Part shown: in pieces, positions 19,637 through 49,144 of the stretch
Numbering within the stretch: the first letter of the stretch is position 1
Layout of the letters: the number at the start of each line of letters is the position of its first letter
Assembly (NCBI RefSeq): GCF_001552355.1
Contig: NZ_BCRA01000013.1
Coordinates: forward strand, 1 to 64,000
Direction: 5' to 3'
DNA: 64,000 nt
Source of the DNA: Microbacterium resistens NBRC 103078
GTDB taxonomy: Bacteria > Actinomycetota > Actinomycetes > Actinomycetales > Microbacteriaceae
Notes under the pieces: model-generated
What the model saw: only the letters and a program-made list of their open reading frames with translations
What the model was told of the DNA's origin: nothing
Database searches by the model: none
Program-made: the position numbers and the translations under genes

Positions 19637-19803
19637 TCTGCTGACTCGTCCCTTGCTCTGCGGTCCTCGTACGCCGGCATGCTGCGCGCTCGCCGGCCCT
19701 TCCAGCTTAGGCCGTGCCCCTCTCCGCAGCGGGCGTCCGGTGCTCCGGGCGGCCCGTCGGTTTTTCACGGCGCGGGGTCCCCGGGCACGCGCGGAGCCCG
19801 ATG

Positions 19804-30450: not shown

Positions 30451-30516
30451 CCGCCGCCGACGCCGGCCTCGGGCCCACCCGTGGCGGTCGTCCGATCCGA
30501 GGCCTAGGCTCGCGCC

Positions 30517-31205: not shown

Positions 31206-31727
31206 TCAGGCGATCTCGCCGCGGTGGAGCGCCTCGGCACGCCGTTTCAGCGCGCGACCGGTGTCGTTGAAGGCGCGGGTCACCCACGGACCCGAGAACC
31301 GCATGACATGGATGGCGTTCGGACCGAGGAACGCGTCCGTCGAGCGGTACCGGGTGAGCTCGGGGCCGACGGACTCCAGGATCTGGTCCCGCCGTGCCGC
31401 GTACGGCCACTCCTCGGTGAACGGAAGCTCCCACGACAGCAAGTGATTCGGTTCCACCGCGCAGACGAACTCGACGCCCGGGAAGAGGGCACCGCCGCCG
31501 GTGTAGTCGACCAGGCTCATGTGGACCGGCGCGCCGAGCTCGAGGGTGGACTCGGCGCGGACGCAGAACGGGTTCCATTCGCCGTAGCGCGGCATGTCCA
31601 CCAGCACCTCCCACACTCGCTCGACGGGAGCGGCGATCTCGAAGAGGTCGGAGGAGACGAGCGTGGCGGTGTCGTACTCGGCGAACGGGTCGAAGGTGGT
31701 GTGCGACGGTGCGCTCTGCGCGGTCAT
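31206..31727 (-). CDS. SRPBCC family protein of the catabolic locus
   Basis: 173 residues with the START/helix-grip pattern EIAAPVERVWEVLVDMPRYGEWNPF. Such proteins bind hydrophobic ligands or act as cyclases and hydratases. The ATG at 31727 has GAGGAC upstream. Last gene of the minus-strand arm that starts with the cyclase-type hydrolase gene, so it probably handles a pathway intermediate. Confidence 0.8.
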   Translation of the reverse strand: MTAQSAPSHTTFDPFAEYDTATLVSSDLFEIAAPVERVWEVLVDMPRYGEWNPFCVRAESTLELGAPVHMSLVDYTGGGALFPGVEFVCAVEPNHLLSWELPFTEEWPYAARRDQILESVGPELTRYRSTDAFLGPNAIHVMRFSGPWVTRAFNDTGRALKRRAEALHRGEIA

Positions 31728-31761
31728 GGCCGAAGTCCTCACTGTTGTCGTCTCTCGGGGA

Positions 31762-32691
31762 TCAGCGGGTCGATGCGGTGAGCCGCTGCGGGTGCCGCGC
31801 GGCGACGGTCCTACGGATGCCCTCGCGCCAGTCGACCGTGCACGGGCCGGTGATCGAGAGCCTGCGGGCGTTGTCGGCGACCGAACCCCGGAGCGTGTTG
31901 TCGATCGGGGCGACCACGACCTCGGCGGCCGTCCCCATGAGCTCGGCGGCGTACGAGCACCACTCCTGGACGCTCACTGCCTCGTCGCCGCCCCAATTGA
32001 CGATGGTCGCGGGAATCGTCGCCGCCTCCAGGAGCGCGGAGGTCTGGGCGTTGATGTCGTCCTCGTAGATCGGACTGTACAGACACGGATCCCAACGGGT
32101 CGTGACGGGTCTACCCTCGGCGATCGCATCGACATGGTGAGCGGGCAGACCGCCGTTCGGCCCGTACGAGGCGTTCATCCGGGCGATCGTGACCGGAATG
32201 CCGAAGGCGCGGGCCGCCAGTCGTGCTGTCGCCTCCTGGCTGATCTTCGACATCGAGTACGTCGGGCTGTGTGTGGCGTTGCAGTCGCCGAGCGGCGACT
32301 CCTCGGTGAAGACGTAGCGCGGGTCGTCCTGCGGACGGTACACGGAGTGCGTCGACATGACGAGCGCGCCCCGGGCCGTCCGGCAGTGCTGGAGCAGCAG
32401 CCCCGTGCCCTCCGCATTCGCGCGGATGGCGCCGTCGTAGTCCCAGCCCGGCGCCTGGCTTGCGGCCAGGTGGACGACGTAGGTGACGTCGCTGGGGACT
32501 CCGGTGAAGTCCCCGGCCGCGAGATCGCACGCGACCGGGGTGATCCCCGCCTCGCGGACTCGCTCTCGCGCTTGCGGATCGCTGAACCGCGCGAGCCCCC
32601 AGACGTCGTTGTCCGCGGCGAGCATGCGGGCGATCGGGAAGGCGATCTGTCCCGCGACCCCGGTCACGAGGATCTTCTCGCCGCTCAGCAT
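31762..32691 (-). CDS. NAD-dependent epimerase/dehydratase (extended SDR)
   Basis: 309 residues. N-terminal Rossmann motif VTGVAGQIAFPIARML, catalytic STHSVY and YSMSK. Extended SDRs include sugar epimerases and 3-beta-hydroxysteroid or hydroxy-ketone dehydrogenases; in this setting oxidation or reduction of a cyclic hydroxyl is likely. Thirty-four bases separate it from the SRPBCC gene and 28 from the 264-residue gene, all on one strand. Confidence 0.82.
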   Translation of the reverse strand: MLSGEKILVTGVAGQIAFPIARMLAADNDVWGLARFSDPQARERVREAGITPVACDLAAGDFTGVPSDVTYVVHLAASQAPGWDYDGAIRANAEGTGLLLQHCRTARGALVMSTHSVYRPQDDPRYVFTEESPLGDCNATHSPTYSMSKISQEATARLAARAFGIPVTIARMNASYGPNGGLPAHHVDAIAEGRPVTTRWDPCLYSPIYEDDINAQTSALLEAATIPATIVNWGGDEAVSVQEWCSYAAELMGTAAEVVVAPIDNTLRGSVADNARRLSITGPCTVDWREGIRRTVAARHPQRLTASTR

Positions 32692-32719
32692 GTCGGCGTC
32701 CGGTCGTCGTCGTGCACGG

Positions 32720-33514
32720 TCACCACAGCTCGTCCGTGTAGGTGTCCGTGCCGACGACGGTGGGAAGGAAGGGCGAGGCGAAGGTCACGGTGCCGGCCCC
32801 CGACCGTTCGATGTCCGCCGCGTAGTCGATGATCTGCGGCCAGCTCTGGACGGGCTCGTCCTCCAGGAAGAGCATCTGCAGGATGCGCTCCGCGGTGCCG
32901 CCGTCGTTGCCCATCTTCATCGGGACGGAATGGTCGGCGGGCCAGGGCTTCATCCGCCAGCTGCTGATCAGGTCGACGGCACCTTTGCTGAGCAAGGCGG
33001 CCGCGGGGCCCTTCTCGATCGCCTGGATCGCGTCGGTGCGCGACACGTCCGCTGCGGGCTCGATCATCAGGACGACGAGACCCCCGTAGCGGTGATCGTG
33101 CGCGAGCTCCAATGGCACGGAGTCCTCTCCCGCCGACACCGTCGAGTCCGGCAGGTACTGGGCGGTGTGGACGTGCGAGCGCTCCGGGAAGCCTCGTCCG
33201 GCAGCGTACAGCTCGCCGACCTGCTTCTGCGCCCACGCGTCCGCGACCTCGGCATCCGGCTCGTGCACCCAGTAGGCAGCGAGATACGAGCCCTCGTCCA
33301 CGGTGCTGGCCACGGGGCCCGATGCGGGAAAGCGCAGGTCCTTCATCGCGCGGGTGGCCACCCATCGGCTGCCGGCGAACCAGCCCGGGCCGATCATGCA
33401 GCCGGAGTATCGGTGGTCCCGTTCGTACCACCGGTTGTACGCGACCTCGTGGCCGCGGTGGGGATCCACCAGGGTGAACAGCGCGTATCCGAGTCGGACG
33501 GGCGTCAGCGTCAT
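32720..33514 (-). CDS. Hypothetical protein of the catabolic locus, 264 residues
   Basis: Soluble protein starting MTLTPVRLGYALFTLVDPHRGHEVAYNRWYERDHRYSG. The N-terminal NRWYERDH pattern resembles ferredoxin-like alpha+beta barrel proteins (EthD/Dabb type), and the protein could be two such modules, but I cannot name the family. The ATG has GAGAAGGAGAAG upstream. It sits between the epimerase and the first monooxygenase, so a helper role in the same pathway is likely. Confidence 0.7.
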   Translation of the reverse strand: MTLTPVRLGYALFTLVDPHRGHEVAYNRWYERDHRYSGCMIGPGWFAGSRWVATRAMKDLRFPASGPVASTVDEGSYLAAYWVHEPDAEVADAWAQKQVGELYAAGRGFPERSHVHTAQYLPDSTVSAGEDSVPLELAHDHRYGGLVVLMIEPAADVSRTDAIQAIEKGPAAALLSKGAVDLISSWRMKPWPADHSVPMKMGNDGGTAERILQMLFLEDEPVQSWPQIIDYAADIERSGAGTVTFASPFLPTVVGTDTYTDELW

Positions 33515-33532
33515 GGTCTTCTCCTTCTCGGT

Positions 33533-35389
33533 TCAGCGGGTGAGCGCCAGGCCGTCGAACCGGTCGTCTTCGCGCCACTGCTGCAGCATGTCGAAGTACT
33601 CGTACCCCGGGCCGTAGAGGCCTGCCACCAGGGTGCTGCGCTTGTCGTCGAAACGGCCCTCGTTGTTGTACTGGCCTGGCGTGCAGGTCCGGTTCCAGTC
33701 CCGGCGCATCTCGGCGTGCCCGGCGATCGTCTCGTTCCACCCGGCCTCGGCCTCGGAGGTCGGCTGGATCGCCTTGATCTGTTCGGTCAGGCACTTGTCG
33801 ATCATGTAGACCATGTGCCGTGCCTGATGATCGATGAGGTTCGCGATGTTCGAGACCGCCGTGGACTGGACGAAGCCGAGGAAGAAGAGGTTGGGGAAGT
33901 CCTCGCTGAGGAAGCCGTGGTACGTGCTCGCGCCGGTGGCGAACTTTTCCGACAGGATCCTGCCGTCGCGGCCGACGACGTCGTATCCGGCCCGGTCGGT
34001 CCAGGTCCGGCCGATCTGGAACCCCGTCGCGAACACGATGAGGTCCACCTCATACTCGTGGTCGCCGACCACGATGCCGCGTTCGGTGATCCGGTCGATC
34101 GGGGTCTCGGACGTGTCCACGATGGTCACCGAGTCCCGGTTGAACGCCGGGAGGAAGTCATCGCTGAACCCGGGGCGCTTGCACATGGTGCGGTAGTAGC
34201 TCTTGAGCTTCTCGGCCTTCTCCGGATCCTCGACGATCGCGTCGACCCGGTCACGGAGCATCTCGTTCCACTCGTAGTCCGAGCGCTCCATCGCGTCCAT
34301 GAACTGCTCGAGAGTGGGATCCGCGCCACCCGCTTCGAAGATCGCGCCGAGCTGGTACTTCGCGAACTTGATCCAGCCGTCGTCCACCTCGCAGTCCGCG
34401 GTCGCGCGGTCCATGGCGCACTTGTCGAAGGTCGCGCGTCGCGCCTGGTGCCATCCCTCCGGCAACGAGCGGAACCACTCCAGGTCGGTCGGCGCGTTCT
34501 CCCGCGGGGCGATCTGCGTGGGGGTGCGCTGGAAGACGACGAGCGACTGCGCGTACTCGGCGAGCTGCGGGATCGCCTGCACGCCGGTGGCCCCGGTGCC
34601 GATGATCGCGACCCGCTTGTCGCGGAGCTTCTCCAGGTTCCCGGTGATGTCTCCTCCGGTGTAGCCGTAGTCCCACCGGCTCGTGTGGAAGCTGTGCCCC
34701 GCGAACGTCTCGATGCCGGGGATGCCGGGCAGCTGCGGGCGGCTGAAGGTCCCGCTCTGCGTCGAGACGAATCGTGCGCGCACCGCGTCTCCGGCGTCGG
34801 TCCGGACGATCCAGCGCGCTGCCGCCTCATCCCACTCCATCCCGGTCACGCGGGTCTGGAACAGGGCGCGCTCGTAGAGGTCGAACTGCTTCGCCAGCGA
34901 CTGGCAGTAGGCGAAGATCTCGCTGCCGCGGACGTAGCGCTCGGTCGGGATGTATCCGGTGTCCTCCAGGTACGGCAGGTACACGTAGGACTCGACATCG
35001 CACCGCACGCCCGGGTATCGGTTCCAGTACCAGGTGCCGCCGAAGTCCGCCGCCACGTCGAGGATGAGGAAATCCGTCCGCCCGCGCTTGGTGAGCTCGA
35101 TCCCGGCGCTCATCCCCATGAAGCCCGCGCCGATGATGAGGACGTCGACCTCCGCGGTGCACGGCGGCGCGGTGCGGGTGCCGGTCGCGTGCGGATCGGC
35201 GTCGAAAGCGGCCAGGTCTCCGTCGAAACCGACCGCCTGATAGGTGTCGGCACCAGTGTTCGGCAGCCGCTTGTCGCGCTCCTCGGCATACTTCCGGCGG
35301 AACCACTCCAGGTCTTCCACCTTGCGTTGCGGCACCCACAGGTGGGGATCGCGTGTCGTGCTTGTGGTCGTGTCGGTGAGGGTCATCAT
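33533..35389 (-). CDS. Flavin-containing Baeyer-Villiger-type monooxygenase 1
   Basis: 618 residues. First FAD-binding motif GAGFMG at 87-92, second nucleotide motif GTGATG, and the Baeyer-Villiger fingerprint FAGHSFHTSRWD at 229-240 (F-x-G-x3-H-x3-W-D). Family members insert oxygen beside a ketone to give an ester or lactone, using NADPH; similarity is closest in feel to cyclohexanone/cyclopentadecanone types. Start at either of two adjacent ATGs (35389, 35386) after AAAGGACG. Second gene of the minus arm. Confidence 0.9.
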   Translation of the reverse strand: MMTLTDTTTSTTRDPHLWVPQRKVEDLEWFRRKYAEERDKRLPNTGADTYQAVGFDGDLAAFDADPHATGTRTAPPCTAEVDVLIIGAGFMGMSAGIELTKRGRTDFLILDVAADFGGTWYWNRYPGVRCDVESYVYLPYLEDTGYIPTERYVRGSEIFAYCQSLAKQFDLYERALFQTRVTGMEWDEAAARWIVRTDAGDAVRARFVSTQSGTFSRPQLPGIPGIETFAGHSFHTSRWDYGYTGGDITGNLEKLRDKRVAIIGTGATGVQAIPQLAEYAQSLVVFQRTPTQIAPRENAPTDLEWFRSLPEGWHQARRATFDKCAMDRATADCEVDDGWIKFAKYQLGAIFEAGGADPTLEQFMDAMERSDYEWNEMLRDRVDAIVEDPEKAEKLKSYYRTMCKRPGFSDDFLPAFNRDSVTIVDTSETPIDRITERGIVVGDHEYEVDLIVFATGFQIGRTWTDRAGYDVVGRDGRILSEKFATGASTYHGFLSEDFPNLFFLGFVQSTAVSNIANLIDHQARHMVYMIDKCLTEQIKAIQPTSEAEAGWNETIAGHAEMRRDWNRTCTPGQYNNEGRFDDKRSTLVAGLYGPGYEYFDMLQQWREDDRFDGLALTR

Positions 35390-35517
35390 CGTCCTTTGTC
35401 GATAGGTGTGGTGCTCGGCCGGGCGGGGCGACTACCAGGGAGCGCCGGCACGAGGGGGTGCGGGGGACATGCGGCGGCTCCGTCGTCGCGGCGGTCTCGA
35501 TCCGATGGGGCGTTCGC

Positions 35518-36408
35518 TCAGCCGATGGCCACCGGGGTGACCGGGCTCGCCGTGGCGCCGGTGACCTTCAGCGCGCCGATCGACAGCAGGAACTCATAAC
35601 AGCGGTCGGCCGCGAGCTCGCTGAGGTTCATGTTCTCGACCAGGTGGATCCCGTGCTCCACGAGCAGGATGATGTGCCCGCCCAGATACACGTTCTCGTC
35701 GAAGGGGATCGGTTCGACGGCTGCGTTGTCCGAGCCCACGAGGGCGACGTCCTTCTCCGCCAGGAACCTGGCAGCCTCCCGCCCGATGCCCGGCTGCGGC
35801 ATCTGCTCGCCCTGGTTCTTGAGGTAGTCCTCCATCCAGCCGGTGCGGATGAGGACCATGTCGCCCGTCTGAAGCTCGACGCCCTGCGCGTCCAGCGCCT
35901 GCTGCAGGTCGGCGGCGGTGATGACGTAGCCGGCCGGGAGGGGGTCTTGTCCCTTGGACGCGGCGACGTCGATGAGCACCCCGCGTCCGGCGATGCCGCC
36001 GACCTGGGTGATGTCGCACTTGTCGGCGCCGAGATACGGGGTCATCCCCTCGGCGGGGAATCCGTTGTAGATCTTTCCGTCCGCGTAGACGTGACAGAGC
36101 GCGTCCATGTGCGTGGAGGTGTGGGAGGGAATGATCAGCTGATCCTCGTTCGCACCGACTCCGGGCGCGCCGCCGTTGGCCCGGGCCATCGCCTCGTCGT
36201 CGTGGTTGGTCAGGGTGAGCCGCTGCGGGGCGCCTCGGTAGTCCAGGTTCGGGACGCCACTGCGCTGGATCGGGATGCTCAGGCCGTACGTCTTACCCGT
36301 CCTGGGCAGCTGCAGGGCCGCGAGGACTCGCTCCGGTGTCAGGAGGTTCAGGGCACCGCGCTCATCCGATTCGCCCCAGCGGCCCCAGTTCGACCTGTGT
36401 GTGCTCAC
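35518..36408 (-). CDS. Cyclase family protein (kynurenine-formamidase-like hydrolase)
   Basis: 296 residues. The metal-binding signature HTSTHMDALCH (HxxTHxDxxxH) is intact in the cyclase (PF04199) family, which holds metal-dependent amide and lactone hydrolases. A lactonase job after the monooxygenase would fit, but this is inference. GTG at 36408 follows GAGGAGGATGAT. First gene of the minus arm (36408-31206), transcribed from the operator-bearing promoter at 36544-36572. Confidence 0.85.
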   Translation of the reverse strand: MSTHRSNWGRWGESDERGALNLLTPERVLAALQLPRTGKTYGLSIPIQRSGVPNLDYRGAPQRLTLTNHDDEAMARANGGAPGVGANEDQLIIPSHTSTHMDALCHVYADGKIYNGFPAEGMTPYLGADKCDITQVGGIAGRGVLIDVAASKGQDPLPAGYVITAADLQQALDAQGVELQTGDMVLIRTGWMEDYLKNQGEQMPQPGIGREAARFLAEKDVALVGSDNAAVEPIPFDENVYLGGHIILLVEHGIHLVENMNLSELAADRCYEFLLSIGALKVTGATASPVTPVAIG

Positions 36409-36543
36409 ATCATCCTCCTCGTTGAAGACGGGTGCGATCCGTGACCGCCGAGCTCTGTGCTCGACGACGATCGCATGACCTCGATCGTTTCCGGGACGGC
36501 GGCAGCGGCGCCGCCGCCCCGATGATCGATGACGATCGCACCG

Positions 36544-36572
36544 ACTGTAGCCAGTGGCCACGTCAGCGTCAA
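36544..36572 (-). promoter_or_regulatory. Promoter and operator O1 of the minus arm
   Basis: Minus strand: TTGACG (36572-36567), 17 nt, TACAGT (36549-36544), a near-consensus sigma-A promoter. The operator GTGGCCACTGGCTAC fills the spacer and reaches into the -10 (36561-36547). A bound protein would block RNA polymerase. Confidence 0.8.
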
Positions 36573-36616
36573 CTCGGCCGTCGCGGCGCGTCCGTGCTGG
36601 CATGCGATCGTCGATA

Positions 36617-36645
36617 TTGACTCGACTGTGGCCACTGGCTACAGT
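36617..36645 (+). promoter_or_regulatory. Promoter and operator O2 of the reductase arm
   Basis: Plus strand: TTGACT (36617-36622), 17 nt, TACAGT (36640-36645), with operator GTGGCCACTGGCTAC at 36628-36642. The region 36409-36714 is a 306-bp divergent control region holding O1 and O2 and no gene I can support. Confidence 0.8.
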
Positions 36646-36714
36646 CGAGGCGATCGCCCGTTGATCTGCGTCGCTGCCCCGCGCCCATGACGGGCAGGCC
36701 CGAAGGAGGACCCC

Positions 36715-37773
36715 ATGGCTGAGCCGGCACGGACCGCACCGGCGGAGCTGCGCATCGTCGACGTCATTGAGGAGACGGCGGACGCACGCTCGCTCGTCTT
36801 CGGCGTCCCGCCCGAGCTGTCGCGAGTGTTCGACTACCGCCCGGGGCAGTTCCTCACGTTGCGCATCCCCAGCGAACGCACCGGTGCGGTCGCCCGCTCC
36901 TACTCGCTCTCCAGCACGCCCGGCATCGACGCGCATCTCAAGGTCACCGTGAAACGGACCGACGGCGGATACGCATCGAACTGGCTGTGCGACAGCATTC
37001 GCGTCGGGGACCTGCTCACCGTTCTTCCGCCGTCGGGATCCTTCGTGCTGAGGAGGCTCGACGCGGACCTCCTGCTCTTCGCCGGCGGCAGCGGCATCAC
37101 CCCGGTGATCTCGATCCTCAAGGCGGCGCTTCGCGACGGCACGGGGCGCATCCGACTCGTGTACGCGAATCGGGATCGGGACTCGGTGATCTTCCGCGCC
37201 GAGTTGAACGCTCTGGCGGAGAAGCATCCCGACCGGCTGAGCATGCTGCACTGGTACGACGACGAGCACGGCTACCCGGACATCCCGCGGGTCGCGGACG
37301 CCGCGGCGAGCCATCCCGATGCGGACGCGTACCTGTGCGGGCCGCCGCCTTTCATGCGCACCGTCGCAGACGGTCTCCGTCACGCCGGGTTCGGCGCCGA
37401 CCGGGTCCACCGCGAGGTGTTCTCCTCGCTCTCCGGCAACCCGTTCGACGAGGTGGCAGCCGTGCCCGAGGAGCCTGCCGACCAGGACGCCGGATCCGCG
37501 GGTGCTGCGAAGGGTGTCGTCCATCTCGACGGGGAGACGCACGAGGTCGCCTGGCCGCGCGATCGCACGCTGGTGGACGTGCTGCTGGCCCGCGGAATCG
37601 ACGTGCCGTACTCGTGCCGCTCGGGAGAGTGTGGCTCGTGCGCCTGTCGCCTCGTCTCCGGGGAGGTGTCCATGGCTCCGACCGAGGCGATGGACCAGGA
37701 GGACATCGACGAGGGATACCTCCTCGGCTGCCAGACGCGACCGGCCTCGGACGAGGTCGAGATCGCCTTCTGA
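36715..37773 (+). CDS. Ferredoxin reductase with plant-type 2Fe-2S domain (KshB-like)
   Basis: 352 residues. FAD-binding FNR domain (RSYSLSS), NAD domain (GGSGITPVISI, CGPPPF) and a C-terminal ferredoxin domain with CRSGECGSCACRL plus the distal cysteine in LLGCQT. This order (FAD-NAD-2Fe2S) is that of KshB and PaaE. It should pass electrons from NADH to the Rieske oxygenase at 40385. ATG 36715 follows GAAGGAGGACC. Confidence 0.9.
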   Translation: MAEPARTAPAELRIVDVIEETADARSLVFGVPPELSRVFDYRPGQFLTLRIPSERTGAVARSYSLSSTPGIDAHLKVTVKRTDGGYASNWLCDSIRVGDLLTVLPPSGSFVLRRLDADLLLFAGGSGITPVISILKAALRDGTGRIRLVYANRDRDSVIFRAELNALAEKHPDRLSMLHWYDDEHGYPDIPRVADAAASHPDADAYLCGPPPFMRTVADGLRHAGFGADRVHREVFSSLSGNPFDEVAAVPEEPADQDAGSAGAAKGVVHLDGETHEVAWPRDRTLVDVLLARGIDVPYSCRSGECGSCACRLVSGEVSMAPTEAMDQEDIDEGYLLGCQTRPASDEVEIAF

Positions 37774-37824
37774 CGCGTGGCGGTTCGGCTGGTCGGCGCA
37801 TCGACGAAGAGCAAGGAGAAGGCG

Positions 37825-38451
37825 ATGGACCTCAGAGAGCTCGTTTCTCGGGACCACACGGCCGTCGTGCTCATGGAGATGCAGCGCGGGGTGGTCGGCG
37901 ACCTCTCCGGTCCGCTTCTCGCTCCGCTGGTCGACGCCGCGCGCGAGCGAGGGATCGTCGCCGCGCTCGCCGAGGTCGTCCGGGCGGCGCGCGAGGTCGA
38001 CGTGCCGGTGGTCCATGCGGTGGTCCGCTTCCGCGCGGACGGCGTCGGCACTCCGATCAACACGCCGACGCTGGCTCGGCTGCAGCGCAGCGATCCGGAC
38101 CGGCTGCGCGAGGGGGCGGCGGACACCGATGTCCTCCCCGAGTTGAGGCCGCGACCCGGCGATGTGCTCTCCTGGCGGCGTCACGGGATGTCGGCGTTCA
38201 CCGGAACCGATCTCGACACCGTACTGCGTTCGCTGGGCGTGCGCACCGTGGTCCTCGGCGGCGTCTCGCTCAACGTCGGCGTGATCGGGACGGCGATCGA
38301 GGCCGTGAACCTCGGGTACAGGGTCGCCGTGGTCCGTGACGGGGTGGTCGGAGTCCCGCTCGAGTACGGCGACGACGTGCTGCGGCACTCGCTGCGGGCG
38401 CTCGGGGCCCAACCGACCGCCGCGGAGATCGCGGAGGCGTGGGCGGGCTGA
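37825..38451 (+). CDS. Isochorismatase-family protein without the usual Asp-Lys-Cys triad
   Basis: 208 residues with the family fold: LMEMQRGVV near residue 17, SAFTGTDLD near 123, VLGGVSLNVGVIGTAIEA near 144. In cysteine hydrolases of this family these positions carry Asp, Lys and Cys; here they are E18, R119 and G152. So it is not a normal cysteine hydrolase; it may use another mechanism, as EntB-type isochorismatases do, or be non-catalytic. ATG 37825 has AAGGAG upstream; a GTG at 37777 is less likely. Follows the reductase gene in the same arm. Confidence 0.8.
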   Translation: MDLRELVSRDHTAVVLMEMQRGVVGDLSGPLLAPLVDAARERGIVAALAEVVRAAREVDVPVVHAVVRFRADGVGTPINTPTLARLQRSDPDRLREGAADTDVLPELRPRPGDVLSWRRHGMSAFTGTDLDTVLRSLGVRTVVLGGVSLNVGVIGTAIEAVNLGYRVAVVRDGVVGVPLEYGDDVLRHSLRALGAQPTAAEIAEAWAG

Positions 38452-38460
38452 TGCTGCGCG

Positions 38461-38492
38461 CTGTCCGCCGGGGCGTCCGACCCGGCGGACAG
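38461..38492. terminator. Bidirectional intrinsic hairpin
   Basis: CTGTCCGCCGGG (38461-38472) pairs perfectly with 38481-38492 across an 8-base loop, between the convergent isochorismatase-like and esterase genes. Confidence 0.8.
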
Positions 38493-38499
38493 CCCGCGC

Positions 38500-40178: not shown

Positions 40179-40221
40179 CGTGGCCTTCCTCCGATCAGGA
40201 CCCGGGCGGCGTTGCCTCAGG

Positions 40222-40250
40222 TTGACGCAAGTGTAGCCACTGGCTACAGT
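40222..40250. promoter_or_regulatory. Promoter and operator O3, divergent
   Basis: Plus strand: TTGACG (40222-40227), 17 nt, TACAGT (40245-40250), with the perfect 15-bp palindrome GTAGCCACTGGCTAC at 40233-40247. On the minus strand TACACT (40235-40230) can serve as the -10 for the SDR-esterase arm, with a weak -35. One operator can therefore control both arms. Confidence 0.8.
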
Positions 40251-40384
40251 GATTGCAGTCACCACGGCGGGTGACCGCGCGAGGCCTCATGGAGGAGGTC
40301 CCGCGAAGGACCGGACCGCATCGGACGCATCGCGGGTCCCACCGTTCCGCGAGTGCCCGCCGCCAGGGTTCAAGGAGGACGACT

Positions 40385-41428: not shown

Positions 41429-42585
41429 TGCGCGGGAAACTGGGGGAGGATCTCGAACGCTGGCGTGCCGAGATCCGGGCGTTCCTCGACGCGGAGCTGC
41501 CCAAGGAGCACGCCTTCAACCCGGAGTTCGACGATGCTCCGGAGCAGTGGGCCATCGCACTGGAGTTCAGCAGGAAGGTCGCCGCGAAGGGATGGATCGG
41601 CCTCACCTGGCCGGTCGAGTACGGCGGCAAGGGACTCCCGCCCGTGGCGAACCAGATCCTGCTGGAGGAGCTGTACGCGGCGGACGCGCCCATGATCAAC
41701 TCGGTCGGCATCTTCCTGGCCGCGGGCACCATCCTGGTCGGCGGCACGGAAGAACAGAAGAAGCGACTGCTGCCCGAGATCGCGAACATGCGCGTGCTCT
41801 GGGCGGAGGGGCTCACCGAGCCCGAGGCCGGGTCCGACCTCGGGTCGCTCCGGACGAAGGCCGTCCGTGACGGCGAGGAGTGGGTGATCACCGGCCAGAA
41901 GGCGTTCACCTCCTGGGGGCCGATGTCGGACGTGCTCTACGTCGCCGCGCGCACCTCCACCGATGAGGCGGCGCGCGACGCGATCAGCATCTTCGTCGTG
42001 GATCTCAAGAGCCCCGGAGTCACGCTGCACCCGATGCGCAACTACGGCGGCGGAGTGCAGTCCACGACCTACCTCGATCACGTCCGGGTGCCGGCCGACG
42101 CGCTGATCGGCGAGGAAGGCATGGGGTGGAGCTACATCATGCGCGCCTTCTACGCGTCGGGAACGGTGGAGCCGATCTACGCGATGCAGGAGGAACGGCT
42201 CCGCGCGCTCATCGCGCATTGCCGGAGCATCCCGGGCCTGCTCGACGACCCCCACGTGCGGGCCGATCTCACCGAGCTCGCCGATATCGTGCAGACCCAG
42301 CGCCTGATGGCCTACGAGATCATCGGGGACAACGCGGCGGGACGCCAGACGCCCTGGGGCGGGGGCGTGCAGCAGGTGATCGCCAAGGAGTCCGAACCGC
42401 TGTTCGCGCAGATCTACGATCGCGTGCTCGGACCCGCGAGTCAGCTCCGTCCCGGCGCGCCCGGAGCAGTGCTCGACGGGAGACCCGAGGCCTGGTACCG
42501 GCAGTCGTTCGCGAACCACGCCGGAGGGACCTCCCAACTCAAACGCATGGTGCTGGCCACGCGCGGACTCGGTCTGCCGCGATAG
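41428..42585 (+). CDS. Acyl-CoA dehydrogenase, first subunit
   Basis: 385 residues, FAD-dependent. Motifs: AEGLTEPEAGSDLGSLRT, TGQKAFTSW and the C-terminal NHAGGTSQLKRMVLATRGLGLP. Start ATG 41428 overlaps the oxygenase stop by one base. In steroid catabolism two different ACAD genes side by side make a heterotetramer; the same is likely here with the next gene. Confidence 0.9.
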   Translation: MRGKLGEDLERWRAEIRAFLDAELPKEHAFNPEFDDAPEQWAIALEFSRKVAAKGWIGLTWPVEYGGKGLPPVANQILLEELYAADAPMINSVGIFLAAGTILVGGTEEQKKRLLPEIANMRVLWAEGLTEPEAGSDLGSLRTKAVRDGEEWVITGQKAFTSWGPMSDVLYVAARTSTDEAARDAISIFVVDLKSPGVTLHPMRNYGGGVQSTTYLDHVRVPADALIGEEGMGWSYIMRAFYASGTVEPIYAMQEERLRALIAHCRSIPGLLDDPHVRADLTELADIVQTQRLMAYEIIGDNAAGRQTPWGGGVQQVIAKESEPLFAQIYDRVLGPASQLRPGAPGAVLDGRPEAWYRQSFANHAGGTSQLKRMVLATRGLGLPR

Positions 42586-42594
42586 GAGGACAAG

Positions 42595-43677
42595 ATGGAT
42601 GTGGCATGGGGCGAGGACTACGACGTCCTCGCGGATGTCGGCAGGGCCGCGTTCTCGCGGTGCTCGCCGTTGGAGGATCGCGCGAGCAGGTTGTCCTTCG
42701 AGGAGCAGGTGGCGCAGTTCGCCGACCTGGGCTGGTTGCAGCTGGGGGACCCGACGGGCGCGGATGAAGATCGTGCGCCTCTGGGCACGATCGCGGCGAT
42801 CTTCACGGAGATGGGGCGCGCACTGGTGGACGGGCCGCTCCTGGACCTGATGACGGCGCGCGACGCCTCGCTGGCAGCGGGCACGGCAGACGCCAGGGAA
42901 CTGGCGGATCGCATCGGCGATGGCGCGACGATCGTCGTCCCGGTGTTCTCCTCCGCCGACTGGGGAGAGCACGTCTCCGTCCGGGACGGCGCGCTGAGCG
43001 GCACCGCGCTCGCCGTCGGCTTCGCGGACCGGGCGCATGCCTTTCTGGTCCACGCGCGAGGTGCGGAGAACGTGCTCGCACGGGTCCCGTCCGGGGACTC
43101 CGTCGAGGTCGAGGCGATGCCGAATCTGGGGGAGCGTCCGCTGTTCGCAGTGAGGTTCTCGAACACGCCGCTCGCGTCCGAGGACGTGCTGGCCCGGGGC
43201 GCGGGCGCGGATGCCGCCGTGGAGCTGGCCGACGCCCGCGCCGCGGTCCTCCGAGCGGCGCAGGTGGTCGGAGCCGGGCAGCGCCTGCTGGAGATCACCG
43301 TCCGCTATGCGCGGGAGCGGCATCAGTTCGGCGGTCCCATCGGACGGTTCCAGGCCGTGCAGTACCTCTGCACGGACATCGCCCTCGCCGTGCATCGGAC
43401 CTCGGTGCACGTGCGCTCCACGGCCCGGGCCCTCGATGCCGGGGAGGACGTGCAGCCGCACCTGGGCCTTCTCCGCCGACAGGCCGCGCGCACGGCGCAG
43501 GTGATGGTGCACGGTGCCCACGAGGTGCACGCCGGCATCGGCTTCATGGTCGAGTCGTCCGTCCACCTGTTCACGAATGCCGCGAAGCGCTGGCAATTCG
43601 ACTTCGGATCGGATGCCCGCAACGAGGCCGACGTCGTGTCGGCCCTCGACCGACGGTGGGCGGAGTCGGCCGCGTGA
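42595..43677 (+). CDS. Acyl-CoA dehydrogenase, second subunit
   Basis: 360 residues, shorter and more diverged. It lacks the EPEAGSD stretch but keeps RHQFGGPIGRFQAVQ and HAGIGFMVESS in the C-terminal helical domain. It starts nine bases after the first ACAD gene, with AGGAGGACAAG. Probably the partner chain that completes the FAD site of the first subunit rather than an independent enzyme. Confidence 0.85.
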   Translation: MDVAWGEDYDVLADVGRAAFSRCSPLEDRASRLSFEEQVAQFADLGWLQLGDPTGADEDRAPLGTIAAIFTEMGRALVDGPLLDLMTARDASLAAGTADARELADRIGDGATIVVPVFSSADWGEHVSVRDGALSGTALAVGFADRAHAFLVHARGAENVLARVPSGDSVEVEAMPNLGERPLFAVRFSNTPLASEDVLARGAGADAAVELADARAAVLRAAQVVGAGQRLLEITVRYARERHQFGGPIGRFQAVQYLCTDIALAVHRTSVHVRSTARALDAGEDVQPHLGLLRRQAARTAQVMVHGAHEVHAGIGFMVESSVHLFTNAAKRWQFDFGSDARNEADVVSALDRRWAESAA

Positions 43678-44480
43678 GCTACATCGACTACCGCGTGGAT
43701 GACGCCGTGGCCGTCATCAGCCTCGACCGGCCGGAGAAGCACAACGCCCAGGACGAGTCGATGCTGCGCGACCTCGACGCACGATGGCAGCAGGCCGCCG
43801 CCGACGACGCGGTGAAGGTGATCGTGATCCGGGCCAACGGCGACAACTTCTCGGCCGGGCACGATCTCCGCACTCCCGCGCCGGGATACTTCCGCGACGG
43901 CAAGACCGTGATGGAGAGCGCCTACGGATGGGAGAGCGAGCACTATCTCGGCTTCTCCCAGCGCTGGCGCGACATCCCCAAGCCGTCCATCGCCGCGGTG
44001 CAGGGCGCCTGCATCGCCGGTGCACTGAACGTGATCTGGCCGTGTGATCTCATCGTCGCGGCGGAGACGGCGTCCTTCAGCGACCCGGTCGTCAAGTTCG
44101 GCGTCGGCGGGGTGGAGTACCACGCGCATCTCTGGGAGCTCGGCGCTCGCCGCGCCAAGGAGATGCTGTTCACAGCGCGCACCTTCAGCGCGGCCGAGGC
44201 GTACGACGCCGGGATGGTCAACCGCGTCGTTCCCCTGGACGAGCTGGACGCCCACACGATGGCGCTCGCCCGCGAGATCTCGGAGATGGACGCATGGGGG
44301 CTGGCCACGACCAAACGCGCCATCAACCAGGGGCTCGACGTGATGGGGCAGCGCGCCGCGATCCAGGCGGCCTTCGACATCCACTGGCACGGACACGCCA
44401 ACGCGCTGCTGCGCACCGGATACCCCCTGCTCACCCCGGATCCGCTGCGATCCGCGTCGGACACCAAGGAGGACTCGTGA
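43674..44480 (+). CDS. Enoyl-CoA hydratase/isomerase family protein
   Basis: 268 residues of the crotonase fold. Oxyanion-hole segments: DNFSAGHDL and QGACIAGALNVIWPCDL. The usual catalytic glutamates are not obvious, so the exact reaction (hydration, isomerisation or ring cleavage) is open. GTG 43674 overlaps the second ACAD stop (GTGA). Part of the beta-oxidation block. Confidence 0.88.
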   Translation: MSYIDYRVDDAVAVISLDRPEKHNAQDESMLRDLDARWQQAAADDAVKVIVIRANGDNFSAGHDLRTPAPGYFRDGKTVMESAYGWESEHYLGFSQRWRDIPKPSIAAVQGACIAGALNVIWPCDLIVAAETASFSDPVVKFGVGGVEYHAHLWELGARRAKEMLFTARTFSAAEAYDAGMVNRVVPLDELDAHTMALAREISEMDAWGLATTKRAINQGLDVMGQRAAIQAAFDIHWHGHANALLRTGYPLLTPDPLRSASDTKEDS

Positions 44481-46063
44481 GCCCGACGGTCACGCCCCGA
44501 GACGTCTCGACAGCCGATGCCGTCTCCCTCTGGCACCTGCTGAGTCTCCGGGCCGCTGCCACCGGAGCTGCGGTGGCGCTTCGCGACGAACACGGCCGGA
44601 CGGAGACGTTCGCGGACGTGGCCGGCCGCGCCGAGCGGGTCGCCGCCGGACTGAGGGATCTCGGCATCGGGCCAGGAGCCGTGGTGAGCTGGCAGCTCCC
44701 CACGAGGATCGACACGATCGTGCTGAGCCTGGCCCTGTCGAGGCTCGGCGCCGTGCAGAACCCGATCATCCCGCTGTACCGGGAGCGGGAGGTCACCGCG
44801 ATGGTCGCGCAGTGCGGCACCGAGTGGCTGATCACGATCCCCGAGTTCCGCGGTTTCGACCACGCCGCCATGGCGCACGGCGTCCGCGCCGCCACCGGTG
44901 ACCGGGTCGAGGTGATCGTGCTCGGCGAGACCCTGCCCGACGGCGACCCCGCGTCGCTGCCGCCCGCGCCGGAAGGACGTGACGAGGTGCGGTGGATCTA
45001 CACGACGTCGGGCACCACCTCGGCGCCCAAGGGCGTCTGCCACGCGGACGGCACGCTGATCGCCGGCGGAAGCGCGCTGGCTGCGGCGATCGAGGCGACG
45101 GCGAGCGACGTCGCGACGGTGCTGTTCCCGTACGCGCACATCGGCGGCCCGGACATGCTCGTGGCGTCGCTCGTGAGCGGCATGTCGCTCGTGCTCATGG
45201 AGGTCTATGAGCCGGCAGCCGCGGTCGCGCTGATGCGGGACGCCGGCGTGACGGTGACGGGCGGATCGACGCCGCACTACGCGCTGCTGCTCGAACAGCA
45301 GCGCAAGGCACCCGGCACCGTGCTCGTGCCCACTCTGCGGATCCTGGCGGGCGGAGGCGCGCCGATGCCGGAGAGCCTGTTCCGCGACGTGCTCGCCGAG
45401 ATGGGAGTGCCGGTGCTGCACGCATACGGGATGACCGAATGCCCGATGATCACCTCCGCACGCGTGGGCGACAGCGTCGAACACCTCGCGACGACCTCCG
45501 GGCGTCCGGTGCAGGGGTGCGAGGTGGAGATCCGGTCGGAGGAGGGCGACGCCCTGGCGGCCGGGGAGGCCGGCCGGGTCTGGCTGCGCGGGGAGATGCG
45601 CTTTCTCCACTACCTCGTGGACGGTCAGCCGGTCGCGCCGTTCGACGCGGAGGGGTGGCTGTTCACCGGCGACGTCGGGCGTCTCGACCCGGACGGACAT
45701 CTCGTCCTCGTCGGGCGCGAGAAGGACCTCATCATCCGGAAGGGGGAGACGATCAGCCCCGCGGAGATCGAGGACGTCCTGGCGGCTCACCCCGGCATCG
45801 CCGACGTGGCGGTGCTCGGCCTTCCGGACGAACGGACCGGGGAGCGGATCTGCGCGGTGCTCGTGGCGGCACCAGGAGGCGAGGCGCCGGATCTGGCCGC
45901 GGTGCGCGAGCACTGTCGCGCCTCGGGCATCTCACCGGCGAAGTTCCCCGAGCAGGTCGTCCTCGTGGACGAGATGCCCAAGACCCCGACCATGAAGATC
46001 CGCAAGCAGGTCCTCCGCGAGTCCGTGTCGGACGCGGCCCTCGCGGTCCCGACGGCCGGCTGA
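44477..46063 (+). CDS. AMP-forming acyl-CoA ligase
   Basis: 528 residues of the ANL superfamily. P-loop YTTSGTTSAPKGV, A5 motif YGMTEC, A7 and hinge GWLFTGDVGRLDPDGHLVLVGREKD, and the lysine tail PKTPTMKIRKQVLR. It should activate the carboxylic acid formed after ring opening as CoA thioester. GTG 44477 overlaps the hydratase stop (GTGA) and has AAGGAGGAC upstream. Confidence 0.9.
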   Translation: MSPTVTPRDVSTADAVSLWHLLSLRAAATGAAVALRDEHGRTETFADVAGRAERVAAGLRDLGIGPGAVVSWQLPTRIDTIVLSLALSRLGAVQNPIIPLYREREVTAMVAQCGTEWLITIPEFRGFDHAAMAHGVRAATGDRVEVIVLGETLPDGDPASLPPAPEGRDEVRWIYTTSGTTSAPKGVCHADGTLIAGGSALAAAIEATASDVATVLFPYAHIGGPDMLVASLVSGMSLVLMEVYEPAAAVALMRDAGVTVTGGSTPHYALLLEQQRKAPGTVLVPTLRILAGGGAPMPESLFRDVLAEMGVPVLHAYGMTECPMITSARVGDSVEHLATTSGRPVQGCEVEIRSEEGDALAAGEAGRVWLRGEMRFLHYLVDGQPVAPFDAEGWLFTGDVGRLDPDGHLVLVGREKDLIIRKGETISPAEIEDVLAAHPGIADVAVLGLPDERTGERICAVLVAAPGGEAPDLAAVREHCRASGISPAKFPEQVVLVDEMPKTPTMKIRKQVLRESVSDAALAVPTAG

Positions 46064-46111
46064 CGCAGTCCCCGGCGGCCCAGGCCGCCCATCGAGCATT
46101 GGAACCTAGAC

Positions 46112-48055
46112 ATGCCTGAACGGAGCTTCGTCGAGCGCGCGGTCGCGCACGCCGACGTCAACGCCTTGCGGCTCTCCCTGTACCAGATCACCCGGGACCC
46201 CGAGATCGCCTCGATCGTGCCGCGTCGGGTGTACGGCGCCGTCGCCGACACGGTCTCGTTCGCGGTCGAGGACGAGGAGCTGATCCGGCGCAAGGCCGTC
46301 GATCTGCTGCTGACCGGCGCCCCCGCAGAGGAGGAGCTGCCCGAGCCCACGGCTTCTGAGATCGACGAGCTGATCCAGATGCTCGAAGGGCGCCGGCTCG
46401 AACCTCCCGAGCTGACGCTGCGGCGTCAGATCCCGAGCTTCGGCGACATGCCGTTCCAGGCGCGCTGGACGGCGGACCCCTCGGTCCCGGACGGGTACCA
46501 CGTGGCGATCGTGGGCGCGGGCATCGCCGGGATCGCGATGGGGGTCCAGCTCGCCCAGCTCGGCATCCCGTTCACCGTCTACGAACGTCGGTCCGAGGTC
46601 GGCGGCGTCTGGAGCATCAACACCTATCCGGATGCCGGGGTGGACACACTCAGCGCCACGTACGAGTACGGGTTCGAGAAGAAGTACCCCTGGCCCGCGT
46701 ACTTCGCCCGCCAGGCGGACGTCCGGGCGTACGTCGAGCACGTGGCGCGGCGGCACGGGGTGTTCGATCGGGTCTCGTTCGGCAGCGACGTCCGCGTCGC
46801 ACGATTCGACGACCGGAGCCAGGACTGGACGCTGACGGTCTCCCGGGAAGGGCAGCCCGACCAGATCGTCCGCGCCGATGTCGTCGTCGCGGCGAGCGGC
46901 ATCTTCGCGACGCCGCGCGATCTGCCGATCGAGGGCGCGGAGGGGTTCGCCGGTGATGTGGTGCACACCGCGCGGTGGCACGACGGAGTGGACTGCACCG
47001 GCAAGAGGGTGGCGGTCATCGGCAACGGGTCGACGGGGGTGCAGCTCCTGTCGAAGGTCGCCGAGACCGCCGAGTCGGTGACGGTGTACCAGCGCACCCC
47101 GCAGTGGATCTCGCCGCGCGCCAACTACGGGGTCCCGATCCCCGACGAGCTCCAGTGGCTCATCGGCGCTCTGCCGTTCTACTGGAACTGGAACAAGTAC
47201 GTCGCCGCGATGGGCACGATCGAGCTGCGCAACGTCCTCACGACCGATGCGCGATGGATCGAGGACGGGGGCGCGGTCAGCGAGCGCAATGACGACCTGC
47301 GCGCGCTCCTGACCCGCTACATCGAGCGTCAGGTCGGCGGCCGGCGCGACCTGGTGGATCAGCTCGTGCCCGACTACGCGCCGATGACGCGGCGCCCCGT
47401 GGTCGACAACAACTGGTATGCGTCACTGACGCGACCGAACGTCGAGCTCGTGTCGACCGCGATCGATCGCATCGAGGAGACCGCGATCGTGACCGCGGAC
47501 GGGACCGCGCGCGAGACGGAGGTGATCCTCGCGGCGGTGGGCTTCCAGACGGAGAAGTACGTCTGGCCGACCGCGTACTACGGCGAGGGCGGGGTGAGCC
47601 TGGAGGAGGTCTGGCGTCCGCAGGGGGCACAGGCCTACCTGGGCATGACGGTCCCGCGCTTCCCGAACCTGTTCCTGCTGTACGGGCCGAACTCGCAGCC
47701 GGTCGCCGGAGGAGCGGGGCTGCCCACCTGGTTCGAGATCTGGAGCCGGTACGTCGCACAGGGGATCGTCGCGATGCTCGAGGGCGGTCATGCTTCGATG
47801 GCGGTGCGCCAGGACGTCTTCGACAGATACAACGAGGATCTGCACGCGGAGGCGCAGAAGCTCATCTACCTGTCCGAGCACAGCACGATGAAACGGAACT
47901 ACTACGTGAACGAGTTCGGGCGGCTGCAGATGAACGCGCCCTGGACGGGCGAGCGGTTCTTCGAGATGTGCGAGGCGCTGCAGGTCTCCGACTACCACTT
48001 CACCGCGGCGTCGACAGCGTCGCCGCGGGAGCTCCTGACCGCACGCATCCACTGA
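46112..48055 (+). CDS. Flavin-containing Baeyer-Villiger-type monooxygenase 2, N-terminally extended
   Basis: 647 residues. About 130 residues precede the first FAD motif (VAIVGAGIAGIAMG), as in 4-hydroxyacetophenone monooxygenase. The second motif is GNGSTG, and the fingerprint FAGDVVHTARWHD is near residue 279. The extension is helical and acidic. It is only distantly like monooxygenase 1, so the two probably act on different ketones in the pathway. No clear ribosome binding site before the ATG. Confidence 0.9.
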   Translation: MPERSFVERAVAHADVNALRLSLYQITRDPEIASIVPRRVYGAVADTVSFAVEDEELIRRKAVDLLLTGAPAEEELPEPTASEIDELIQMLEGRRLEPPELTLRRQIPSFGDMPFQARWTADPSVPDGYHVAIVGAGIAGIAMGVQLAQLGIPFTVYERRSEVGGVWSINTYPDAGVDTLSATYEYGFEKKYPWPAYFARQADVRAYVEHVARRHGVFDRVSFGSDVRVARFDDRSQDWTLTVSREGQPDQIVRADVVVAASGIFATPRDLPIEGAEGFAGDVVHTARWHDGVDCTGKRVAVIGNGSTGVQLLSKVAETAESVTVYQRTPQWISPRANYGVPIPDELQWLIGALPFYWNWNKYVAAMGTIELRNVLTTDARWIEDGGAVSERNDDLRALLTRYIERQVGGRRDLVDQLVPDYAPMTRRPVVDNNWYASLTRPNVELVSTAIDRIEETAIVTADGTARETEVILAAVGFQTEKYVWPTAYYGEGGVSLEEVWRPQGAQAYLGMTVPRFPNLFLLYGPNSQPVAGGAGLPTWFEIWSRYVAQGIVAMLEGGHASMAVRQDVFDRYNEDLHAEAQKLIYLSEHSTMKRNYYVNEFGRLQMNAPWTGERFFEMCEALQVSDYHFTAASTASPRELLTARIH

Positions 48056-48068
48056 AAGGCGGAAGACC

Positions 48069-49139
48069 ATGAGAGCGATCGTCTTTGACGGTACGGAGAA
48101 CACGCTCGTCGACGATGTCGAGCTCCGCGACCCGGGACACGGCGAGGTGATCGTCCGCATCGTGGCGAGCGGGCTGTGCCAGAGCGACCTGAGCGTGATG
48201 CGCGGCAAGATCCCGTTCCCCTCGCCGGTGATCCTCGGCCACGAGGGCGCGGGCGTCGTGGAGGCGGTAGGGCCCGGGGTCACGGCGCCGCAGGTCGGCG
48301 ATCACGTGGTCCTGGCCACGTTGGCGGCGTGCGGGCGATGCCCGTCGTGCGCGGCGGGTCACCCGACGATGTGTCGTGAGTCGTTCGGCAAGACCGCCAC
48401 GCCGTTCCGGCGCGGCGACACCGCCGTCCACAACTTCGCGACGCTGTCGACCTTCAGCGAACGGATCGTGGTCCAGGCGCAGCAGGCGATCCCGATCCCG
48501 AAGGACGTCCCTCTGGAGACGGCGTGCCTGATCGGCTGCGCGGTGCTCACCGGCGCGGGAGCCGTCTTCAACCGTGCGCGCGTGCGACCGGGCGACTCGG
48601 TGGCGGTGATCGGCGCGGGCGGGATCGGACTCAACGTGGTCCAGGCGGCCCGGGTGGCGGGTGCCGCCCGGATCATCGTCGTCGACACCAATCCGGGCAA
48701 GGCGGCCCAGGCGGAGCGCTTCGGGGCCACCGCGTTCGTCGACGCGACGGATGGCGACGCGGCGGCACGCGTCCGCGAGCTCTCCGGCGGAGGCGTCGGC
48801 CATGCGTTCGACTGCGTGGGCGGCGAGGCCGTGACCAGCCAGGCCATGGAGATGCTCGACTGGGGCGGTCAGCTGATCATGCTCGGAGTGGCCGGCCCGG
48901 AGACGCGGCTGTCGGTGCCGGCGAGCGCGTTGTACATGGATCGTTCGGTGCTCGGCTGCCGGTATGGCTCATCCCGGCCGGGAGCGGATGTCCCGATGTA
49001 TCTCGAGCTCTATCGCCGTGGGCTCCTCCTGCTCGACGAGCTGGTGACGCGGACCTACGAGCTCGACGACTTCGAGATGCTCTTCGACGATGCTCGCGCG
49101 GGGGTGCTCGACCGCGGCGTGCTGCGGATGCCCGCCTGA
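48069..49139 (+). CDS. Zinc-dependent alcohol dehydrogenase
   Basis: 356 residues, MDR family class III-like. Catalytic zinc ligands in GLCQSD and GHEGAG, structural zinc cysteines in CGRCPSCAAGHPTMC, and NAD motif GAGGIG. It probably oxidises an alcohol entering or leaving the monooxygenase steps. GAAAGGCGGAAG precedes the ATG. Last gene of the plus arm; its stop lies five bases from the stop of the convergent regulator gene. Confidence 0.92.
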   Translation: MRAIVFDGTENTLVDDVELRDPGHGEVIVRIVASGLCQSDLSVMRGKIPFPSPVILGHEGAGVVEAVGPGVTAPQVGDHVVLATLAACGRCPSCAAGHPTMCRESFGKTATPFRRGDTAVHNFATLSTFSERIVVQAQQAIPIPKDVPLETACLIGCAVLTGAGAVFNRARVRPGDSVAVIGAGGIGLNVVQAARVAGAARIIVVDTNPGKAAQAERFGATAFVDATDGDAAARVRELSGGGVGHAFDCVGGEAVTSQAMEMLDWGGQLIMLGVAGPETRLSVPASALYMDRSVLGCRYGSSRPGADVPMYLELYRRGLLLLDELVTRTYELDDFEMLFDDARAGVLDRGVLRMPA

Positions 49140-49144
49140 TCCCG

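Follow-up and report, generated by a model that had tools for sequence, protein, structure and literature searches.

Within a 64,000-nucleotide stretch of the Microbacterium resistens NBRC 103078 genome (contig NZ_BCRA01000013.1, positions 1 to 64,000; hereafter the window) lies a cluster of about 17 genes, at positions 31206–50188, that we read, on a narrow balance of evidence, as an island for shortening and opening a steroid-like polycyclic isoprenoid by Baeyer–Villiger chemistry. The cluster is real and conserved, and probably mobile. Most of our confidence lies with the steroid-like class of substrate, and much less with any one compound in it, such as a steroidal sapogenin. This class is favoured because the cluster combines steroid-type acyl-CoA dehydrogenases with a KshA-like Rieske oxygenase, because some relatives of the cluster adjoin the steroid side-chain genes for CasG and thiolase, and because related genes occur in Sphingobium strains tied to the degradation of alpha-tomatine.

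When the genes at 29305–50747 were scanned against Pfam and NCBIfam (Pfam for all 17 cluster proteins), the results confirmed every enzyme class that an earlier, sequence-only reading had listed: a Rieske system, two Baeyer–Villiger monooxygenases (BVMOs), a short-chain dehydrogenase/reductase (SDR), an alcohol dehydrogenase (ADH), an HSL-type esterase, a cyclase-type hydrolase, an ANL ligase, an acyl-CoA dehydrogenase pair and an enoyl-CoA hydratase. Specifically, a plus-strand operon at 40385–49139 runs from the KshA-family Rieske oxygenase (40385–41428; PF19298 and PF00355) through acyl-CoA dehydrogenase subunits 1 (ACAD1; 41428–42585; PF02771 and PF02770) and 2 (ACAD2; 42595–43677; PF00441), the enoyl-CoA hydratase, a crotonase (ECH; 43674–44480; PRK08290, 350 bits, cut-off 280), the ANL acyl-CoA ligase (44477–46063; PF00501 and PF13193) and BVMO2, a type I enzyme with an N-terminal extension of ~125 residues (46112–48055; FMO-like, 63 bits), to the zinc ADH (48069–49139; PF08240 and PF00107). 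Starts were chosen in this analysis for the esterase, SDR, Rieske, ECH and ligase genes, and with these choices start and stop overlap at the Rieske–ACAD1, ACAD2–ECH and ECH–ligase junctions. The gene for an N-terminally extended TetR regulator (49145–50188, minus strand; PF00440 at residues 160–206) faces the operon. Also on the minus strand, the gene for the HSL-type alpha/beta esterase (38500–39378; PF07859, Abhydrolase_3, 166.8 bits; GDSAGG) overlaps that of the SDR (39375–40178; PF13561, 187 bits) in the same start/stop manner, given its chosen start. A second minus-strand group comprises the PF04199 cyclase-type metal hydrolase, a candidate lactonase (~35518–36408, start uncertain; 103.7 bits), the type I enzyme BVMO1, polycyclic-ketone/PtlE-like (33533–35389; NF045818, 642 bits, cut-off 1100), and three genes beyond those listed earlier: U264, a conserved protein matching no Pfam or NCBIfam family (32720–33514), an NAD-epimerase-family SDR (31762–32691; PF01370, 74 bits) and an SRPBCC (Polyketide_cyc2) protein (31206–31742; PF10604, 32 bits). 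Between the two groups, on the plus strand, lie a KshB/PaaE-like reductase with FAD/NAD and 2Fe-2S domains, a candidate partner of the Rieske oxygenase (36715–37773; TIGR02160, 228 bits, cut-off 420.8), and the fourth additional gene, for an isochorismatase-type cysteine hydrolase (37777–38451; PF00857, 104 bits). A long plus-strand frame at 35458–36444 is the antisense of the cyclase gene.

The active-site motifs of these enzymes are well preserved. Type I BVMOs are marked by the fingerprint FxGxxxHxxxW[P/D] and two dinucleotide-binding motifs. BVMO1 carries FxGxxxHxxxWD in all 12 copies listed (the window's and 11/11 relatives), and BVMO2 keeps FxGxxxHxxxW in 17 of the 18 copies listed, the first F being replaced by Y in locus L005; the last position of the BVMO2 fingerprint is variable and is H in the window copy. 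Both GxGxxG motifs are present, by eye, in the window copies of both enzymes. The best Protein Data Bank (PDB) match of BVMO2 is the steroid monooxygenase 4ap3, over residues 127–345, and that of BVMO1 is 5mq6, which we take to be a polycyclic-ketone monooxygenase. KshA enzymes are recognized in part by a Rieske CxH/CxxH motif plus an iron-ligand motif; both are intact in 16/16 copies of the cluster's oxygenase listed (the window's and 15/15 relatives), the protein scores 100.8 bits against PF19298 (KshA_C, cut-off 23.3), and among solved structures those of KshA match it best (E about 1e-30). The acyl-CoA dehydrogenase is split, with the N-terminal and middle domains in one open reading frame and the C-terminal domain alone in the other, and by sequence the adjacent pair would be of the heteromeric type: its best matches are the partner chains Tcur3483 and Tcur3481 (6wy8/6wy9), with Tcur3483 nearest to ACAD1, followed by 4x28, and Tcur3481 nearest to ACAD2, for which 4x28_D ranks fourth. 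Tcur3483/Tcur3481 and 4x28 are presumably heteromeric steroid dehydrogenases. The PF04199 hydrolase, whose nearest PDB entry is 5ibz, followed by kynurenine formamidases, keeps HxxxHxDxxxH in 12/12 copies listed (the window's and 11/11 relatives), and the GDSAG motif of the esterase is intact in 13/13.

The cluster recurs in some Rhodococcus, Gordonia and Nocardia, where most genes are 56–86% identical to those of the window. Nine loci with BVMO2 in named hosts were compared, from Rhodococcus (including R. hoagii and R. phenolicus DSM 44812), Gordonia and Nocardia vermiculata NBRC 100427. The order Rieske–ACAD1–ACAD2–ECH–ligase–BVMO2 is kept in 9/9 of these loci, all of other genera, and the clustering is therefore not due to chance. 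All nine hold the genes for TetR, ADH, the Rieske oxygenase, ACAD1, ACAD2, ECH, the ligase, BVMO2 and BVMO1, and show the cyclase gene through its antisense frame; U264 is present in eight and a reductase of 50–53% identity in five, some loci ending before the last genes. The ADH and TetR genes lie upstream of the Rieske gene in the named loci and downstream of BVMO2 in the window. Among relatives, identities reach 70–81% for the epimerase-family SDR, 71–80% for U264 (six aligned copies), 60–73% for the ligase, 50–59% for the reductase, which stands beside BVMO2 in several of them, 46–48% for the SDR (four relatives) and, where copies are unbroken, 67–79% for ADH and 45–62% for TetR. A relative of the SRPBCC protein (55%) was found in L045 alone among the loci searched, and none of the isochorismatase-type hydrolase in the f22 loci searched.

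Distribution was assessed in drawn samples of genomes. Of 401 genomes sampled from the family labelled f22, 16 in seven genera carry ACAD1; these carriers overlap with the nine named loci, several being the same genomes. BVMO2 and ADH accompany it in 15 of the 16, and one carrier (G728) has the fullest set, with SDR, esterase, SRPBCC protein and reductase as in the window. BVMO1 was found in 11 of the 401 genomes at E 1e-250, all 11 among the 16 ACAD1 carriers (hypergeometric P about 5e-18, uncorrected for relatedness); the broken BVMO1 of G666 (locus L010) was missed at this threshold. Four carriers (G484, G547, G657 and G679) lack BVMO1 but have the Rieske–ACAD half of the cluster, which can therefore exist independently. 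In L010 (Rhodococcus sp. JCM 9791), the TetR, ADH, ACAD2, ECH, BVMO2 and BVMO1 genes are in pieces, through decay or draft errors. In some Rhodococcus versions BVMO1 is preceded by a VOC-family protein, or the modules are separated by a luciferase-like monooxygenase, or both (L002:13310-13777, L006:12848-14014); the scans of the window cluster showed no member of either family. The TetR protein has ~150 extra N-terminal residues, of which the first part resembles, by eye, a second DNA-binding domain, and most of this long form is shared with relatives.

Gene neighbourhoods in three carriers (G679, G484 and G547) point to steroids: the Rieske–ACAD–ECH–ligase–BVMO2 module lies within 25 kb of genes for CasG (a steroid-24-oyl-CoA synthetase, that is, a bile-acid CoA ligase), a steroid 3-ketoacyl-CoA thiolase and the lipid-transfer protein PRK07855, with all matches over their cut-offs. 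In G484 the module is also within 25 kb of ChsH2-type domains; in addition, G679 has a CasI-like ligase (651 bits, cut-off 900) and G484 a stretch of one. Across the 16 carriers, CasG lies within 25 kb in four, with 0.32 hits expected (Poisson P 0.0004, uncorrected for relatedness), and the steroid thiolase in three, against 0.36 expected (P 0.006).

A related core stands on plasmids of the alphaproteobacterial genus Sphingobium, with Sphingobium herbicidovorans MH among its hosts. Relatives of U264 (41–43%) and of full-length BVMO2 (44–47%) occur together on 12 Sphingobium plasmid records; these are all the plasmid records with U264 and also the top 12 for BVMO2, the next reaching 31%. On the two plasmids whose gene set was checked, AP027328 and NZ_CP020539, relatives of U264, BVMO2, ADH, ECH, the esterase, the SDR and the isochorismatase-type hydrolase all stand together (BVMO2 47%, ADH 52%, ECH 58%, SDR 43.5%, esterase 42%; isochorismatase relatives 34% over 203 residues and 38% over 85), and on NZ_CP020539 a PF01370 epimerase-family gene adjoins U264, as in the window. 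The Sphingobium cluster differs in that the stretch searched holds no match to the Rieske or PF04199 proteins and its second BVMO is ~30% identical to both BVMO1 and BVMO2; a BVMO1-like gene (45%) shares a plasmid with the U264 cluster at a distance of ~420 kb, and a gene annotated as a cyclase, its likeness to that of the window not compared, lies ~18 kb past the last shared gene. Eleven of the 12 records come from isolates that, by their ‘Tom’ names, belong to a collection whose tested members all degraded alpha-tomatine; the twelfth comes from S. herbicidovorans MH, which transforms alpha-tomatine, as its relative MI1205 did not (PMC10653915). Rhizobial plasmid records (H65–H76) carry a BVMO2-like protein, ~31% identical over nearly its whole length and apparently of the y4iD type. 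Rieske neighbourhoods on plasmids of Mycobacterium branderi (38%) and Rhodococcus DMU1 (43%) gave no clue to the substrate; on the latter, a 49% reductase relative lies near the Rieske gene. The fold of U264 was not used, as its AlphaFold model has a mean pLDDT of 56 and the 50 Foldseek matches listed (TM at most 0.55) point loosely to dimeric alpha+beta-barrel proteins.

Several lines of evidence weigh against a steroid-like substrate, and they are set out here with the rival explanations they bear on. The best-ranked plasmid relative of BVMO1 is a Streptomyces gene (46%) annotated as a neopentalenolactone/pentalenolactone D synthase, a sesquiterpenoid enzyme, leaving a terpenoid ring as a less probable candidate substrate, and the identity of the Rieske oxygenase to solved KshA, estimated by eye, is only about 30%. 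The island might serve to break down a smaller cyclic compound, either a ketone or an alcohol (a mono-, bi- or tricyclic terpenoid or a macrocyclic ketone), by BVMO, lactonase and beta-oxidation, which we consider unlikely. Consistent with such a substrate, BVMO1 also matches, at 642 bits and thus below the cut-off, the model for PtlE, which makes a tricyclic sesquiterpenoid lactone, as well as cyclohexanone monooxygenases, and the ligase matches a cyclohexanecarboxylate-CoA ligase (342 bits, under cut-off). Conversely, the dehydrogenase pair and the Rieske oxygenase are closest to steroid enzymes, some relatives adjoin steroid side-chain genes, and the 17 cluster proteins include no aldehyde dehydrogenase family in Pfam (the rest of the genome was not searched), a lack that speaks against a pathway for cyclohexanone or macrocyclic ketones. 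The substrate range proposed by the sequence-only reading, a terpenoid, a sterol-like ring or a macrocyclic ketone, can be narrowed towards the steroid-like polycyclic compounds, with the terpenoid retained on account of the BVMO1 relative. The likeness of BVMO1 to PtlE, an antibiotic-pathway enzyme, would also suit tailoring genes of a biosynthetic cluster; the 17 proteins scanned include no terpene cyclase or polyketide synthase, and the presence of the ligase, the ACAD pair and the crotonase is a sign of degradation, making this highly improbable.

The steroid markers of the window genome (3.98 Mb in 233 contigs) weigh both against a steroid-like substrate and against a second rival, in which the island would be an accessory that supplies the 9,10-seco route in the ordinary catabolism of sterols or bile acids. 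No match was found in this genome to CasG at E 1e-150, to the TIGR03213 (HsaC-type) extradiol dioxygenase at E 1e-40 or to the PRK07850 steroid thiolase at E 1e-150, and its one KshA_C protein is the cluster's own Rieske oxygenase. A steroid could therefore not be finished there by the known route, and the host could either carry out part of the breakdown or rely on unknown downstream steps. The earlier statement that this is not the classical steroid route is thus supported genome-wide, for these three markers, at these thresholds. By contrast, TIGR03213 is matched at E 1e-40 in all 16 other carriers, 13 of them over the cut-off, and the PRK07850 thiolase is present in all 16, which speaks for an accessory role, as do the genes for CasG, the thiolase, the lipid-transfer protein and ChsH2-type domains that adjoin the module in three or four of its relatives. 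CasG, however, is absent, distant or on another contig in 12 of the 16 carriers and was not matched in three carriers of both modules (G617, G728 and G760). All told, an accessory role seems quite unlikely.

Further observations weigh against the steroid reading. The four carriers with CasG nearby fall in two genera and therefore represent fewer independent events, and one carrier (G657) has the Rieske, ACAD, ECH and ligase genes with no BVMO2 or ADH match in 40 kb. The Sphingobium link to tomatine is one of strains and not of gene function, and the ‘Tom’ strains are related; the 830–945 kb region of AP027328 holds no annotated glycoside hydrolase (hypothetical proteins were not scanned), and monooxygenases go unmentioned in the main text of the tomatine study (PMC10653915). 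U264 itself occurs in 24 of 396 genomes drawn from the phylum, the window's own included, and in 18 of its 28 other places the neighbourhood holds relatives of the ligase (10/18), the ACAD1–ACAD2 pair (4/18), the cyclase (3/18), the isochorismatase-type hydrolase (3/18), an ADH of the 50% class (2/18) and the epimerase (1/18), with no BVMO match in any of the 18; without control neighbourhoods, these counts are no more than suggestive. Finally, the literature searched yielded no experiment on any gene of the cluster.

Among the closest known systems is the pdc cluster of Caenibius tardaugens, in which a type I BVMO converts a ketone in the steroid side chain to an acetate ester, and which comprises four genes, two of them for regulators, and has a luciferase-like monooxygenase (PMC12239570). 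BVMO2 aligns over residues 1–632, N-terminal part included, at 29% identity with the TetR-adjacent BVMO of plasmid pNL2. That protein is probably Saro_3708: it stands next to a TetR gene at about the right place, although the new locus tags of the record offer no confirmation. Saro_3708 is described as a homologue of the proven progesterone BVMO (PMC12239570). Relative to pdc, the window cluster adds a second BVMO, a lactonase candidate, a Rieske oxygenase, a ligase and beta-oxidation genes; with 29% identity to the presumed pdc homologue and no PF00296 protein, it does not belong to the pdc type, and a PF00296 gene lies between the modules in L006. Actinobacterial bile-acid and cholesterol catabolism involves CasG, Ltp2/ChsH, KshA and HsaC; the window cluster shares the KshA family, heteromeric-type dehydrogenases and, in some relatives, the gene neighbourhood with that route, and differs in that three of its markers went unmatched in the genome of the window. 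Cyclohexanone and macrocyclic-ketone pathways (chn, cpd and cdd) use an ADH, a type I BVMO and a hydrolase, all shared with the window, and need an aldehyde dehydrogenase for the omega-hydroxy acid; the CoA, Rieske and steroid-type dehydrogenase genes of the window are extra. We found no description of the cluster in the open literature searched. The kinds of enzyme and BVMO-based steroid side-chain cleavage are already known.

What the data show directly is the gene families and motifs, a conserved gene set whose two modules co-occur, and the lack of this set in relatives within the genus; the substrate class, the order of steps and any roles of U264 and of the SRPBCC and isochorismatase-type proteins we infer. 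For a steroid-like substrate, the gene set would fit the following order. The reductase and Rieske oxygenase would hydroxylate the skeleton, and ADH or SDR would produce a ketone, which BVMO2 could convert, in the side chain, to an ester. Cleavage by the HSL-type esterase would release a short acid and a ring alcohol, to be oxidized by the SDR, the epimerase-family SDR or ADH to a ring ketone, from which BVMO1 might form a lactone that the PF04199 hydrolase opens. The ligase, the ACAD1–ACAD2 dehydrogenase and the crotonase would then perform part of a beta-oxidation turn on the acid, completed by enzymes encoded elsewhere. Thiolase, PF00725/PF02737 hydroxyacyl-CoA dehydrogenase and glyoxalase/extradiol families have no Pfam match among the 17 cluster proteins, and KstD is not named in their listed NCBIfam matches (the genome was not searched for it). 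The earlier list of missing functions stands on these points, except that the SDR, for which 25 of 225 matching NCBIfam families were listed, could serve as an SDR-type hydroxyacyl-CoA dehydrogenase. The oxidative ring-opening pathway proposed before, putative in its substrate and novelty, agrees with the conserved set in its ketone oxygenation, ester or lactone hydrolysis, CoA activation and partial beta-oxidation.

In Microbacterium, the cluster is confined to the window's genome as sampled: ACAD1 was found in a single genome among the 149 of the genus (E 1e-100) and in a single one among 396 sampled across the phylum (E 1e-120), in both cases the window's own. A tRNA-Val(tac) gene (30378–30452, plus strand; ARAGORN) borders the island on its left, and in 6/6 same-genus relatives fetched aceE lies no more than ~1.8 kb from this tRNA, as it does in the window. 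None of the six has the cluster in the 17–19 kb fetched for each, with weak or short paralogue matches in two. The right-flank genes CT398, polA and p59670 fall inside the fetched stretch in four of them, at tRNA-to-CT398 distances of 0.4 kb (L108), 1.6 kb (L109), 4.2 kb (L104) and 8.5 kb (L105), compared with 24 kb in the window; the other two have different material beside the tRNA. We therefore read the cluster as an island in a variable tRNA-side region, horizontally acquired from other soil bacteria, with transfer as an inference from these comparisons. The stretch at 30500–54670 is variable across the genus. A plasmid origin was rejected (megablast against plasmids returned eight records with short matches, none covering 80%), and the last 14–20 bases of the tRNA gene are not repeated elsewhere in the window as an att site. 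The window has a G+C content of 71%. It also encodes a GNAT acetyltransferase (50310–50747) with a weak, below-cut-off likeness to AAC(6') aminoglycoside acetyltransferases and a GmrSD-type restriction endonuclease (17636–19768; PF03235 and PF07510), and the genome has a second pyruvate dehydrogenase E1-like protein (71% identical; G000:C98:13082-15751).

Most of what is known about aerobic steroid breakdown in bacteria concerns the 9,10-seco route. A more specific possibility, which we regard as unlikely, is an undescribed Baeyer–Villiger route that would act on steroidal sapogenins or on the aglycones of glycoalkaloids and be shared horizontally between Actinomycetota and Alphaproteobacteria, in which BVMO2 and the esterase would cut the side chain at a ketone and BVMO1 and the PF04199 lactonase would open a ring. 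The genes for plant sapogenin degradation were largely unknown before the early steps were identified in Sphingobium (PMC10653915). A conserved, movable BVMO-based gene set in named culture-collection hosts makes the sapogenin question testable, and the cluster offers candidate pairs of steroid-acting BVMOs and lactonases. If the sapogenin proposal is true, root and soil bacteria without the 9,10-seco pathway would feed on, or detoxify, plant defence compounds.

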